Positions 2,381-10,424 of a stretch of DNA of 10,941 nucleotides are shown here, one piece after another. Position numbers and translations under genes: made by a program. The stretch spans positions 1 through 10,941 of the forward strand of contig JAAZCS010000313.1 in assembly GCA_012513125.1 (NCBI GenBank). The letters run 5' to 3'. Within the stretch, counting starts at the first letter, position 1; every line of letters starts with the position of its first letter. The DNA comes from Treponema sp. (GTDB lineage: Bacteria; Spirochaetota; Spirochaetia; Treponematales; Treponemataceae). The notes under the pieces are model-generated. The model was not told where the DNA came from, ran no database searches, and saw only the letters and a program-made list of their open reading frames with translations.

Positions 2381-3919
2381 TTAGTCTGAGTTTTTTGCTA
2401 GATATTTCTGCAAGATTTCTGTAGCCTGTTTCGGATTTGCTTTTCCTTTAGAAAGCTTCATAACTTGACCCATTAGCCAACCCAAAACATTAGTTTTTCC
2501 GTTTTTATAATCCTGAACAGCGTTGTCGTTATTTTTCAGAACATCTTGAACTATTTTATCAATTTCACATTCATCATCAACAACTTCAAAACCTTTTTCC
2601 TTTATAATAACAGAAGGCATTTTTGAAGTTTTCATCATTTCTTCAAAAACTTCTTTTCCCTGCTTACTTGTTATTTTATTAGCATCCAAAAGATTAGCTA
2701 AATCAGAAATATGTTCAGGTGTAATATTAACATCAGCAATAGTCTGCTTTTTTTCATTCATAACAGCCAATAATTCTGACAAAATTAGATTTGCAACTCG
2801 TTTTGGGCTATTTGAATTTTTTGCAGCCTCTTCAAACCACAACGCAAATTCTCTTGTAGAAGTAAGTGTTTCCACGTCAAAATCAGAAAGTGCATACTCT
2901 TTTTTTAAGCGTGTTCTTTTTGCTTCAGGAAGTTCACCAACTTTACTCTTTGCATTTTCAATAAATTCTTCGCTTACACTAAAAGGCTTAATATCAGGTT
3001 CAACTACAAATCTATAATCAACAAAAGAATTTTTTGTACGCATTATATTTGTAACTGATTTTTCTTCATCCCAGTTCATTGTGTTTTTATAACCAGGATT
3101 AAATTCTTGTCTATTTACCTTAAATTCTTCAAGTTGTCGTTTTGCCTCATATGTACAAGCATCTTTAATTGAGCGGAATGAGTTCAAGTTTTTAATTTCT
3201 GAAATAGGAGTATGATATAATTTTCCATCTTCCCAAACATTCAAGTTGATATTTGCATCGCATCTCATGTTTCCTTCTTCAAGATTACCATTTGTTACTT
3301 TTACATAGCGAAGAATTTCTTGAACAGTCTGCATAAATAAAGCTGCCTCATCAGGTGAAGTCATATCTGGTTTAGTTACAATTTCAATTAATGGTGTTCC
3401 GCAACGGTTATAGTCAATATAAGAATGTGAACCTTGCAAGTGCAAAGATTTTCCAACATCTTCTTCCAAGTGAATTCTTTCTATTCTAATTCTTCTATAC
3501 TTATTATCAATTACACAATTCTTACCAACAAAATTTTCTGGTCTAAACATACTTCCACCAGGTCGTTCATTTTCTTGATAATGGATAAATGGCAAATCAA
3601 CATAGCCATCAGTGCATAAAGGCAAATCGTATTGAGTAATTTGATAACCTTTAGCCAAATCAGGATAAAAATAATGCTTTCTATCAAATTTTGTAAATCT
3701 AGCTATGTTACAATTTAAGGCCTGCCCAGCTACAGCTCCAAGCTCAACATAACCTTTACTTACTCGAGGCATTGCTCCAGGAAGACCTAAACATACTGGA
3801 CAAACACGAGTATCAGGCATTCCCCCATATTTATTCTCACAGGCACAAAAAGCCTTAGTTTTAGTCAAAAGCTAAGTATGAATTTCGCATCCAATAACAA
3901 TTTCCCACTTATCAATCAT
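2381..3919 (-). CDS. gatB: Aspartyl/glutamyl-tRNA amidotransferase subunit B, interrupted by an in-frame TAG at codon 16
   Basis: GatB is the kinase and tRNA-binding subunit of GatCAB, which converts Glu-tRNA(Gln) to Gln-tRNA(Gln) and Asp-tRNA(Asn) to Asn-tRNA(Asn). ATG 3919 has a good Shine-Dalgarno (AAGAGGAA, complement of 3925-3932) and its own promoter. It encodes the conserved N-terminus MIDKWEIVIGCEIHT, then TAG (complement of 3872-3874), then LLTKTKAFCAC. Many family members have Gln at the TAG position. Downstream is intact: zinc-type cysteines 25, 27, 40 and 43, GTPLIEIVTKPDM, GNLEEGNMRCDANINL, and a YqeY-like tail with KANPKQA. Full length with readthrough is 512 codons. A TTG at 3868 opens a 495-codon frame but has no Shine-Dalgarno and would delete the conserved VIGCEIH strand. 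It might still be used for reinitiation, being 3 nt after the TAG. gatA and gatC are not in the window. Confidence 0.9.
3872..3874 (-). other. In-frame amber codon in gatB
   Basis: Reading from the gatB ATG, codons 14 to 18 are CAT ACT TAG CTT TTG. TAG stands between conserved residues His14-Thr15 and Leu17-Leu18. A single C-to-T change from CAG would give it. Because the protein is conserved on both sides in one frame, this is a point nonsense change and not a frameshift or a mistaken start. Confidence 0.9.
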
Positions 3920-4000: not shown

Positions 4001-4069
4001 CTACAAAATTGATAAATACCTATCTCCTGTATCAGGCAATAATACAACAATATTTTTTTCAGAATACTC
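4001..4069 (-). pseudogene. Detached C-terminal coding remnant of cysK
   Basis: In the same frame as cysK and directly after its TAA, 22 codons encode a segment containing IVVLLPDTGDRYLS, followed by TAG at 4001-4003. This is the conserved C-terminal strand and signature of CysK. With it the protein would be 305 residues, the family norm. The intact motif and frame show that the TAA is either recent, a sequence error, or read through. Confidence 0.8.
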
Positions 4070-4918
4070 TTATTTCTTTGCAAGATTTATCGCAGCACAC
4101 AAGGCGGCTCCACTTGAAATACCAACAAGAATTCCTTCTTTTCGGGCTAAAGTTTTTACCATTTCAGGCGCTTCTTCGTTTCCAACAGTAAGAATTTCAT
4201 CCAAAACAGATTTATCTAACACTTTTGGAATAAAATTCGCACCTATTCCTTGCAACTTATGAGGACCAGCTTTTCCTTTTGTTAATAATGGAGATGTTTC
4301 TGGCTCTACTCCAATTATTTTTACATCTTTATTCTTACTTTTTAAAAAACGACCTGTTCCAGTTATTGTTCCGCCAGTTCCAATTCCAGCCACAAAAGCA
4401 TCAACTTTTCCATCCATATCATTCCAAATTTCAGGACCAGTTGTTTTTTCATGAGCGTCGGCATTAACAGGATTATCAAATTGAGATGGAATATATGAAT
4501 GTTCATATTTTTTCGAAAGTTCCTCGGCTTTTTCCACTGCACCGGCCATTCCTTTTGAACCTTCAGTCAGAATAATTTCAGCCCCATATAACTTTAAAAG
4601 TTTAATTCTTTCTTCACTCATTGTATCAGGCATAGTTAAAATCACCTTGATTCCATAACTTGCAGCAATTGCAGCAAGACCTATTCCAGTATTTCCACTT
4701 GTTGGCTCAATAATGACTGAATCTTTGCTTAATTTCCCAGTTTTAAGTGCATCATCTATCATAGCTTTGCCAATTCTATCTTTTGCACTACCAGCCGGAT
4801 TCAAATATTCAAGCTTTGCAAAAATATTTCCTTTTAATCCAAATAATTTTTTTATATTTTTTAATTCCAATAATGGTGTATTTCCAACCAATTCAGCTAT
4901 ACAATTTGCACTCTTCAT
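4070..4918 (-). CDS. cysK: Cysteine synthase A (O-acetylserine sulfhydrylase), ended early by an in-frame TAA
   Basis: CysK is a PLP enzyme of the cytosol that joins O-acetylserine and sulfide to cysteine. The start at ATG 4918 is preferred over the in-frame ATG at 4933: GGAGAA (complement of 4926-4931) lies 7 nt ahead, and MKSANCIAELVGNTPLLEL matches the family start. Visible features are the PLP Schiff-base Lys46 in PAGSAKDR, the substrate loop TSGNTG (73-78), the phosphate loop GTGGT (180-184) and the PLP-ring serine in ISSGAA (268-269). The product stops after 282 residues at AINLAKK. Family members normally run to about 305 and end with PDTGERYLS, and that segment is still encoded past the TAA. 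It starts 2 nt after the pflA stop, so it belongs to the pflA transcript. Confidence 0.9.
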   Translation of the reverse strand: MKSANCIAELVGNTPLLELKNIKKLFGLKGNIFAKLEYLNPAGSAKDRIGKAMIDDALKTGKLSKDSVIIEPTSGNTGIGLAAIAASYGIKVILTMPDTMSEERIKLLKLYGAEIILTEGSKGMAGAVEKAEELSKKYEHSYIPSQFDNPVNADAHEKTTGPEIWNDMDGKVDAFVAGIGTGGTITGTGRFLKSKNKDVKIIGVEPETSPLLTKGKAGPHKLQGIGANFIPKVLDKSVLDEILTVGNEEAPEMVKTLARKEGILVGISSGAALCAAINLAKK

Positions 4919-4920
4919 TT

Positions 4921-5667
4921 TTAACTTCTCCATTCATTATATTTATCACATTCTAGTATTTTCTTTGCATTTTCTACTCTTTCCAAAGTTGGCGACTGAG
5001 TATCCTGTAAGACATAATCCAAACCCAAATCTTTATATTTCACTGCACCTAATCCATGATAAGGCAAAACTTCAACTCTTTTTACATTATGCAGCGTTCG
5101 GATAAAATCTCTTGTTTGAATTAAATATTCATCATTATCGGTAATGCCAGGAACAAGAACATGCCTAATCCAAATCGGTTTTTTAATTTCATCAAGATAT
5201 TTGAACATCTCAATAATGTTTTTTCCAGTATGACCAGTCAATTTTATATGTTCATCTTCATTTATATGTTTTATATCCATCAACAAGATATCAGTTAATT
5301 GCATTAATTTTTGGAATTTTTTGAACCACTCACCTTCTTTTGTAAAAGGACCACCTGCTGTATCAATACAAGTATTTATTCCCAAATTCTTTGCTTTTTG
5401 AAACAATTCAATTAGAAAATCTATTTGAACCAAAGGCTCGCCACCACTTACTGTAATTCCACCTTTTGCACTCCAATACGATTTACAAGCAATAGCCTCA
5501 CTTATTAAATCATCAGCACTATACAATTTGCCTTTAGTCATATCCCACGTATCAGGATTGTGGCAATATTTACAACGAAGCGGACACCCAGCTAAAAAAA
5601 TAATAAATCTAACACCAGGTCCGTCTACTGAACCAAAAGATTCTAATTGATGAACATATCCTTGCAT
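4921..5667 (-). CDS. pflA: Pyruvate formate-lyase-activating enzyme (radical SAM)
   Basis: PflA uses a [4Fe-4S] cluster and S-adenosylmethionine to abstract hydrogen from the glycine of PflB, creating its glycyl radical under anaerobic conditions. The 248-residue product has the radical-SAM motif CPLRCKYC (Cys28, 32, 35), the SAM-binding SGGEPL (74-79), and PFL-activase signatures GSVDGPGVRFIIFLAGC at the N-terminus and DIKHINEDEH in the middle. It is of usual length. AAGGAA (complement of 5673-5678) precedes the ATG. It lies downstream of pflB but is separated from it by a strong terminator, so its expression probably depends on readthrough. cysK begins 2 nt after its stop, with the cysK ribosome site inside the pflA end. 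Confidence 0.95.
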   Translation of the reverse strand: MQGYVHQLESFGSVDGPGVRFIIFLAGCPLRCKYCHNPDTWDMTKGKLYSADDLISEAIACKSYWSAKGGITVSGGEPLVQIDFLIELFQKAKNLGINTCIDTAGGPFTKEGEWFKKFQKLMQLTDILLMDIKHINEDEHIKLTGHTGKNIIEMFKYLDEIKKPIWIRHVLVPGITDNDEYLIQTRDFIRTLHNVKRVEVLPYHGLGAVKYKDLGLDYVLQDTQSPTLERVENAKKILECDKYNEWRS

Positions 5668-8288: not shown

Positions 8289-8915
8289 TTATCTAAAACA
8301 GAATGACAAACCTGCCTTAACCCATTCTTGACCACCAAATTCAACATTTAAACCAAAATTTTTTGCAAATAACCAATTAAAACCAACAACAGGATATAAT
8401 TCAAAATCCCAATTTGACTTATTGAACTTTGCGTAAACAATGTCATAAGTTTGATATAAATATTGAACACCAAACTTTACGCCGGCATAAATGTCCAGCG
8501 ATTCTGCAGGAAGATGAAAATGATATTTCATTGTTGTTCCAACTGATGCTGTATTATTGATTTTTGCATATCCAAAAACATTACCTAATCGAAGTCCATA
8601 ATTTAACTCTGTAAACTGCGACATTCCAAAACCAGCATATCCACCAAAAGAAAAAGGCAATTTCCAGATTTGTGACATAACATCAAAACTAGCTTCTGAA
8701 TATGGGAATAACCAATCCAATCTAGAAATGGTAAGAGCTTGTTTTTTAAACATATTTGCGTGCAATCCTGCATCTGCATTTATTATCACATCACCAGTTT
8801 TTAAATCTGCTGCATAAGTGCACCAAACATCTGACCACTTATAGTCTTTTGCAAACAAATTTGTTGAAAACAAAGCCAAAACTGCCAAAAAAATGACACT
8901 AAATTTCTTATTCAT
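8289..8915 (-). CDS. Exported protein of unknown function, probable small outer-membrane beta-barrel
   Basis: I do not recognise a named family. The 208-residue product has a clear signal peptide: MNKK, a hydrophobic core SVIFLAVLALF, and a likely cleavage after residue 22 (LFA, before KDYKWSDVW). The mature part has alternating polar and aromatic stretches rich in Tyr, Phe, Trp and Gly, such as GGYAGFGMSQFTELNYGLRLGN, KFGVQYLYQ, YPVVGFNWLF, NVEFGGQEW and AGLSFCF. This pattern suggests an 8-10-strand outer-membrane barrel. The last residues are SFCFR, so the usual terminal Phe is followed by one Arg. ATG 8915 is preferred to the upstream ATGs because GGAG lies 6 nt before it and the signal peptide then starts correctly. 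It lies between a beta-CASP gene and pflB, with no evident functional link. Confidence 0.7.
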   Translation of the reverse strand: MNKKFSVIFLAVLALFSTNLFAKDYKWSDVWCTYAADLKTGDVIINADAGLHANMFKKQALTISRLDWLFPYSEASFDVMSQIWKLPFSFGGYAGFGMSQFTELNYGLRLGNVFGYAKINNTASVGTTMKYHFHLPAESLDIYAGVKFGVQYLYQTYDIVYAKFNKSNWDFELYPVVGFNWLFAKNFGLNVEFGGQEWVKAGLSFCFR

Positions 8916-8937
8916 ATAAATCTCCATCACTATGGGA

Positions 8938-8996: not shown

Positions 8997-10424
8997 TTAT
9001 TTGTCAAAAAAATATCTTTCCTTGTCTTTTACTATCTCTACATTTGGAAATCCATTTTTAATCAAATGTTCCTTAAAGAATGCTTGTGGTTCTTTTTCAC
9101 CATGCACCAAAAAGATTTTCTTTAAACGAGATGTATTTATTTCTTTTAACCAAGAAGTCATTTCACTATAATCAGCATGTGCAGAAAAAGCGTTCAATTG
9201 TTCTATCTTTGCGTTAACTTTATACACATCACCCAAAATTCGAACTTCACTTTCACCTTCTTTTATTCGCCTACCCAACGTGTTTTCCGCCATGTAGCCA
9301 ACAATTAAAATTGTATTTTTAGGATCTGAAATATTATTTGCAAGATGATATAAAACTCTTCCAGCTTCACACATTCCATCTGCACTAATAATAATCATCG
9401 GCCCTTCTTTTTTATTCAATTTTTTTGATTCTTCAACACTTGTTGTATAAGTAAGCGAACTAAAACCGAAAGGATTTTTATGATGCTTCAAAAACGCCTC
9501 ATTCACTTCTTCATCGTAGCACTCTGGATGAACCATAAAAATACTTGTTGCATTTGTCGCCATTGGTGAATCTACATAAATTGGAATTTTTGGAATTTTT
9601 TGCTTGTCCATCAATAAATGCAAAGCAAAAACTAACTCTTGAGCTCTTTCAATTGCAAATGAAGGAATAATGACTTTTCCTTTTTTAGCTACCGCTTCAC
9701 GAACAATCCGCTCTAACTCTTTCATGGCAAAATCATGTTGTTCATGAAGTTTATTACCATATGTGGATTCAAGATAAATATAATCAGGAGCAGGAAAATC
9801 AACTGCAGGATCTCTAACAATCGGCTTTCCTTTTCGTCCTATATCACCTGTATATAAAATTCGTAATTCTTCATCAGGATTCTGCTTATTTGGATTAACC
9901 GTAATATTTGCAAAAGATGATACCAAAATATGTCCAGCATCAAGAAATTCCAATTGAACATTTGGAGCGAGCAACATCTTTCTGTTATATGATAATGATA
10001 CAATTTGATTTGCAGTCGCTACACAATCTTTTTCGTCATACAATGGTTTCCATGTAAATGCCCCACCTTTTTTAGAAGCCCGTTTTGCCAAAAATTCTGC
10101 ATCCCGCGCTTGAATTCTTGCACTATCCATCATGATAATATTCACAAGATCTCTTGTTGCTGGCGTTGCATAAATATTTCCCTCATATCCTTTTTTCGTC
10201 AACACAGGCAGAAGACCACAATGATCCAAATGTCCATGTGTTACAATTACTGAATCTAAATGTGATAAATCTATATTAAATTGTCTGTTTTTTTCATCGG
10301 ATTCACGTCTCTTTCCTTGGAATGATCCACAGTCAATCATTATCTCTCTTCCATCAATGTCTAAAATATGTTTTGAACCAGTAACTTCTTCACAAGCACC
10401 CAACGAGTATCCAGAAACCTTCAA
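8997..10424 (-). CDS. Beta-CASP metallo-beta-lactamase-fold hydrolase, RNase-like (COG1236 type)
   Basis: This is a 475-residue cytosolic protein of the CPSF73/Ysh1-like MBL-fold RNase group. Metal-binding motifs are THGHLDHCG (HxHxDH, 63-68), His165 in LDAGHI and Asp194 in YTGDIG. The beta-CASP insertion has ESTYGNKLH (219 onward), the SADGMCEAGR segment (about 348-356) and IVGYMAENTLGRR. The C-terminal motifs are SAHADYSE (414-421) and HGE (441-443). Members act as endo- or exonucleases on RNA, but the bacterial members of this particular subgroup are poorly characterised, so the substrate is open. The start is TTG at 10424, supported by a perfect AAGGAG (complement of 10431-10436) 6 nt upstream. 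It diverges from the DUF2804 gene. Confidence 0.9.
   Translation of the reverse strand: MKVSGYSLGACEEVTGSKHILDIDGREIMIDCGSFQGKRRESDEKNRQFNIDLSHLDSVIVTHGHLDHCGLLPVLTKKGYEGNIYATPATRDLVNIIMMDSARIQARDAEFLAKRASKKGGAFTWKPLYDEKDCVATANQIVSLSYNRKMLLAPNVQLEFLDAGHILVSSFANITVNPNKQNPDEELRILYTGDIGRKGKPIVRDPAVDFPAPDYIYLESTYGNKLHEQHDFAMKELERIVREAVAKKGKVIIPSFAIERAQELVFALHLLMDKQKIPKIPIYVDSPMATNATSIFMVHPECYDEEVNEAFLKHHKNPFGFSSLTYTTSVEESKKLNKKEGPMIIISADGMCEAGRVLYHLANNISDPKNTILIVGYMAENTLGRRIKEGESEVRILGDVYKVNAKIEQLNAFSAHADYSEMTSWLKEINTSRLKKIFLVHGEKEPQAFFKEHLIKNGFPNVEIVKDKERYFFDK

Follow-up and report, generated by a model that had tools for sequence, protein, structure and literature searches.

An in-frame amber codon in gatB of a fragmented Treponema-type MAG is probably a consensus error

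How should a stop codon be read that interrupts, at codon 16, a gene as expected to be essential as gatB? The codon in question lies in a single contig of 10,941 bases, the whole of which was analysed and is called the window here. It belongs to a fragmented spirochaete MAG of 2,265,936 bases in 406 contigs, which is 80.62% complete. A first-pass annotation of the window had offered four options for the amber codon: a sequence error, a nonsense mutation rescued by a second gatB, suppression by a tRNA reading UAG, or termination followed by reinitiation at a nearby TTG.

The codon itself is as described. On the minus strand, the frame begins with an ATG (3919-3917), 5' of which stands AAGAGGA, continues through 14 further codons, all family-typical, and meets the TAG (3874-3872); 496 open codons then follow up to the stop at 2383-2381. 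The gatB frame is thus not intact in this assembly, and the TTG named as a possible later start (at 3868) is present in the sequence. Past the TAG, the predicted protein matches NCBIfam NF004012 (E 2.6e-166, 554 bits against a cut-off of 338, profile positions 18-480 of 481) and Pfam GatB_N from profile position 11, and the match to the GatB equivalog model extends over its length. These matches, together with Gln at the codon-16 position in all 89 relatives' loci checked, bear out the claim that the frame carries GatB sequence around the TAG.

The relatives' gatB loci comprise the best 80 of 139 confirmed in a scan of genome contigs, all titled Treponema or other spirochaetes, and nine from a search of the genus. 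Identity of the window GatB to the 80 named loci listed reaches 83% at most (best segment). In the genus search (146 genomes, including our own), the top-scoring gatB match outside the genome itself, among the matches listed, has 78% DNA identity, and short pieces among them reach up to 81%; no close strain was seen among the matches listed for these 146 genomes. For 86 of the 89 loci we also compared residues private to one sequence, omitting three (L084, L089, and L090) that lie on the opposite strand and likewise have Gln. Besides the stop, the window GatB has one private residue over 260 columns that are invariant in the 86 relatives, among which, taken singly, 71 have none at invariant columns and the remaining 15 have one to three each. 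This count indicates a gatB under normal selection. Coordinates of the features discussed here are collected in Table 1.

Table 1. Positions of gatB, cysK, and the stray in-frame stops found by the homology scan (unprefixed positions are those of the window)
Feature	Position	Strand	Remarks
gatB, Asp-tRNA(Asn)/Glu-tRNA(Gln) amidotransferase subunit B	2381..3919	minus	ATG at 3919, stop 2381-2383, one in-frame stop
In-frame TAG, codon 16 of gatB	3872..3874	minus	Gln in P0001 and in 89/89 relatives' loci
TTG codon after gatB TAG	3866..3868	minus	start of mechanically listed 495-aa ORF
cysK, cysteine synthase A	4001..4933	minus	one in-frame stop; P0121 starts at ATG 4918
In-frame TAA in cysK	4070..4072	minus	codon 288 from ATG 4933, residue 283 of P0121; Glu in P0121
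nadE stray stop	L133:1464	minus	homology scan
Lipid kinase stray stop	L153:12007	plus	homology scan
ABC ATPase stray stop	L130:2971	minus	homology scan
leuB stray stop	L256:5416	plus	homology scan
Acyl-ACP thioesterase stray stop	L129:4195	minus	homology scan

A second stray stop, absent from the first-pass annotation, interrupts cysK, the gene that adjoins gatB upstream. It is a TAA that falls 22 sense codons short of the natural stop, and those codons complete the usual CysK end. The two stray stops are approximately 200 bases apart. That two adjacent genes carry one each was an early hint of a cause not confined to gatB.

Elsewhere in the window, the minus-strand frame at 8997-10424 encodes a beta-CASP metallo-beta-lactamase protein whose top NCBIfam model is that for type VII Cas14 (398.5 bits, cut-off 800), followed by aCPSF1; the product is probably a plain beta-CASP RNase. 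A 213-residue protein encoded on the minus strand at 8289-8930 has a signal-peptide-like start by eye and is without a family match in Pfam or NCBIfam at E 0.001. The G+C content is 33% in the window, approximately 29 to 35% in the readable contigs of a first sample (L117-L158), 38% in the reference genome G041, and 41% in the relatives' loci.

The load of stray stops was estimated over a sample of the MAG made up of stretches of 62 of its 406 contigs, 23 of them wholly masked, with 347,849 readable bases including the window. Reference frames for the homology scan came from G041, from two fragmented MAGs of the genus (G103 and G061), and from 80 relatives' loci, and shadow frames were removed. 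Homology coverage of the genome came to 106,491 bases, and in these the scan found eight internal stops. One (L118:8631) was judged by eye to be the natural end of a gene that we take to be uvrA and was dropped from the count, leaving seven, in gatB, cysK, nadE, leuB, and genes for a lipid kinase, an ABC ATPase, and an acyl-ACP thioesterase. The same scan found no internal stop in 540,598 covered bases of the controls (17,367 in G103, 28,350 in G061, 134,939 in G041, and 359,942 in the relatives' loci, with none in any of the four). The MAG therefore carries an excess of stray stops, seven to eight in 106 kb against none in 541 kb. Because the window had been chosen for its stop, we also counted without it (8,292 covered bases): five stops remain in approximately 98 kb, against none in 541 kb, and by our arithmetic the chance that all five would fall in the genome's own part at an equal rate is approximately 1 in 10,000. 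A stricter scan with fewer references gave four stops in 53,081 covered bases (two of them in the window), against none in 277,988 and none in 39,802. G103 and G061 are themselves fragmented and yet show no stops over the 17 and 28 kb covered, so that fragmentation alone does not predict stray stops.

A piecewise family search bore on the five genes outside the window. In nadE, leuB, and the ABC ATPase gene, the pieces on either side of the stop match one family, in order; for the lipid kinase the downstream piece alone has a family match, and for the thioesterase the upstream piece alone was submitted. A reference-free scan marked 27 places in our sample, eight in G041, and 12 in the relatives' loci. 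The 27 include the cysK stop of the window. We inspected 16 places, 12 of them among our own 27, and judged most to be neighbouring genes sharing one frame, for example pairs that we named from their sequences as mraZ-rsmH, hisH-hisF, pstA-pstB, and motA-motB. Two further places are likely stray stops, less well supported than the seven: a TGA in an M28-type peptidase gene (L128:658), whose upstream piece matches Pfam M28 and whose downstream piece matches no family, and a TAA (L154:3593) in the gene of what we label a TPR-like lipoprotein. Frameshift-like breaks found by the scan number one in our sample, one in G041, one in the relatives' loci, and none in G103 or G061. By eye, an apparent frameshift was also noticed on the plus strand of L130 near position 4344, in a gene that, from its sequence, we take to resemble O-acetylhomoserine sulfhydrylase.

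Near-identical intact proteins exist for three of the interrupted genes. The open part of GatB was used to query a protein catalogue, and among the 8,000 candidates scored was P0001, an intact GatB of 512 residues. Its cluster has five member sequences and 32 contigs, the longest of 132,363 bases. P0001 is identical to the open part at 492 of 495 residues (99%), the next catalogue match standing at 82%, and differs from the window GatB solely at residues 16 (stop to Gln), 319, and 451. It also has the private residue of the window GatB, which accordingly belongs to the species. For CysK, the counterpart is P0121 (305 residues; five member sequences and one contig of 2,028 bases), from which the window protein differs at two of 305 residues: the stop, where P0121 has Glu, and residue 249, at which the next relatives have the same residue as the window and P0121 is the deviant. 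The source of both P0001 and P0121 is listed as '-', meaning the protein encoded by the window itself, and the listing counts both with the window. For nadE, a gene expected to be essential, the counterpart is P0241 (647 residues; one contig of 5,829 bases), which shows seven differences from the MAG copy (locus L133, G000:C250), namely, six residues and the stop, in place of which P0241 has Ser. These comparisons rest on cluster representatives. Over gatB, cysK, and nadE together, missense differences from the intact counterparts number nine in 1,464 codons, somewhat above what the rate of stops predicts, so that some of them may reflect true divergence between strains.

The nine stray stops that we accept consist of five TAA, two TAG, and two TGA codons; random single-base changes in the codons of this genome would give 52% TAA, 28% TGA, and 21% TAG. 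The residues that they replace are Gln, Glu, and Ser, as judged from the near-identical proteins, and probably Gly, as judged from the best relative of leuB. Since 5.3% of single-base changes in the genome's codons create a stop, seven stops in 106,491 bases correspond, by our arithmetic, to approximately 1.2 base changes per kilobase, plausibly the error rate expected of a consensus at very low depth. Two of the three stops with a known catalogue residue are of the G:C to T:A kind. A passage in PMC5994075 links such changes to 8-oxoguanine in sequencing; we considered an oxidation-type error spectrum, for which three stops are too few to build on.

With the near-identical intact GatB and the excess of all three kinds of stop in the MAG, we favour the reading that the gatB amber codon is a single-base consensus error in a fragmented, incomplete Treponema-type MAG, and we give it a probability of roughly 90%. 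In that case the gatB of the organism would very probably be of the usual kind, running uninterrupted over 512 codons, with codon 16 encoding Gln. We infer as the cause a base-call or assembly error, perhaps a consequence of low read depth. The stop is real in the letters of the assembly and most likely absent from the organism. Of the four options offered by the first-pass annotation, the same two lines of evidence single out sequence error as the best supported; the findings fit it and none of the other three.

The strongest competitor, which we nevertheless consider unlikely, is that the stops are real and the sampled lineage, like a decaying or mutator one, has recently acquired private nonsense mutations across many of its genes, gatB and cysK included. 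The stops are, after all, present in the assembly and spread across several genes; for MutY there is just a weak match of 53 bits, below the cut-off of 286.5, in an assembly that is 80.6% complete; and a second cysK-like place in the genome, at C4 (68% DNA identity), could make loss of the window cysK tolerable. Seven to eight stops per 100 kb would, however, amount by our arithmetic to some 150 newly broken genes in 2.27 Mb, gatB and nadE, both expected to be essential, among them, a burden that a free-living cell would hardly survive. The near-identical copies of GatB, CysK, and NadE are intact. In gene decay, frameshifts are expected to be at least as frequent as nonsense changes, and here they are not similarly raised, with one found by the scan and one by eye. 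Taken more broadly, the idea that the strain truly carries these stops, either with near-cognate readthrough of all three or as a mutator with many freshly broken essential genes, seems to us highly improbable; should the stops be genuine, it would be surprising to find readthrough so widespread in a spirochaete.

The idea that a suppressor or reassigned tRNA decodes UAG as Gln has, in our estimate, a very slight chance of being correct. The invariant Gln at codon 16 of the relatives suits it, and the 23 tRNA genes seen in this incomplete assembly leave several amino acids without any, so that a suppressor tRNA may have escaped notice. Release factor 1 is neither lost nor altered, prfA being whole at C246 (364 open codons, 469.6 bits, above the curated cut-off), and in the first sample 49 of the 259 open frames that look coding end in TAG. 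The stray stops do not recur as UAG at one same residue: TAA, TAG, and TGA all occur, at Gln, Glu, Ser, and probably Gly, and no single reassignment accounts for such a mixture of codons and residues. P0001, moreover, has a translated Gln at this position, which by the standard code implies a sense codon there. The 23 tRNA genes (22 Rfam matches and one found by ARAGORN), from a genome of which approximately one fifth is missing, include one tRNA-Gln, with anticodon TTG; neither CUA nor UUA occurs among their anticodons. Suppression, as raised in the first-pass annotation, is therefore opposed by the intact RF1 and by the mixed stops and residues, and less clearly by the lack of CUA among the 23 tRNA genes seen.

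It seems equally remote that the window copy has become a pseudogene, its function supplied by a second gatB. A second copy could be missing from an incomplete assembly; when looked for, gatB gave one full match in this assembly, and the other place found is marginal (E 9.5e-4, 26% identity, query residues 362-468). The window copy shows no relaxed selection, having one private residue in 260 columns, and it is not broken in its lineage, the near-identical protein being intact; at 99% identity P0001 looks like the same gene and not like a diverged paralogue. The gene gatA gave a partial match (profile positions 2-393 of 466), below the cut-off. Reinitiation, by which translation would stop at the TAG and resume at the TTG one codon further on, where a 495-codon frame opens, yielding a GatB short of 17 residues, is possible in principle and unneeded, and we think it scarcely credible, because the first strand is kept in the relatives and in P0001 and because it leaves the other stray stops unexplained, cysK having just 22 codons past its stop.

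The case serves mainly as a caution: where a draft MAG shows a lone in-frame stop in an essential gene, any claim of recoding should be preceded by comparison with near-identical catalogue proteins and by a count of the stop load over the entire assembly. The window gatB resembles the GatB of GatCAB in its family match along the length past codon 16 and differs from it by one in-frame stop, in this assembly. With truncating errors in draft assemblies it shares the pattern of single in-frame stops, scattered among genes that are normal in other respects. Using truncated proteins to gauge assembly errors is the principle of the IDEEL check, as described in a passage of PMC6785717 that deals with indels in long-read assemblies, whereas the faults seen here are mainly substitutions.
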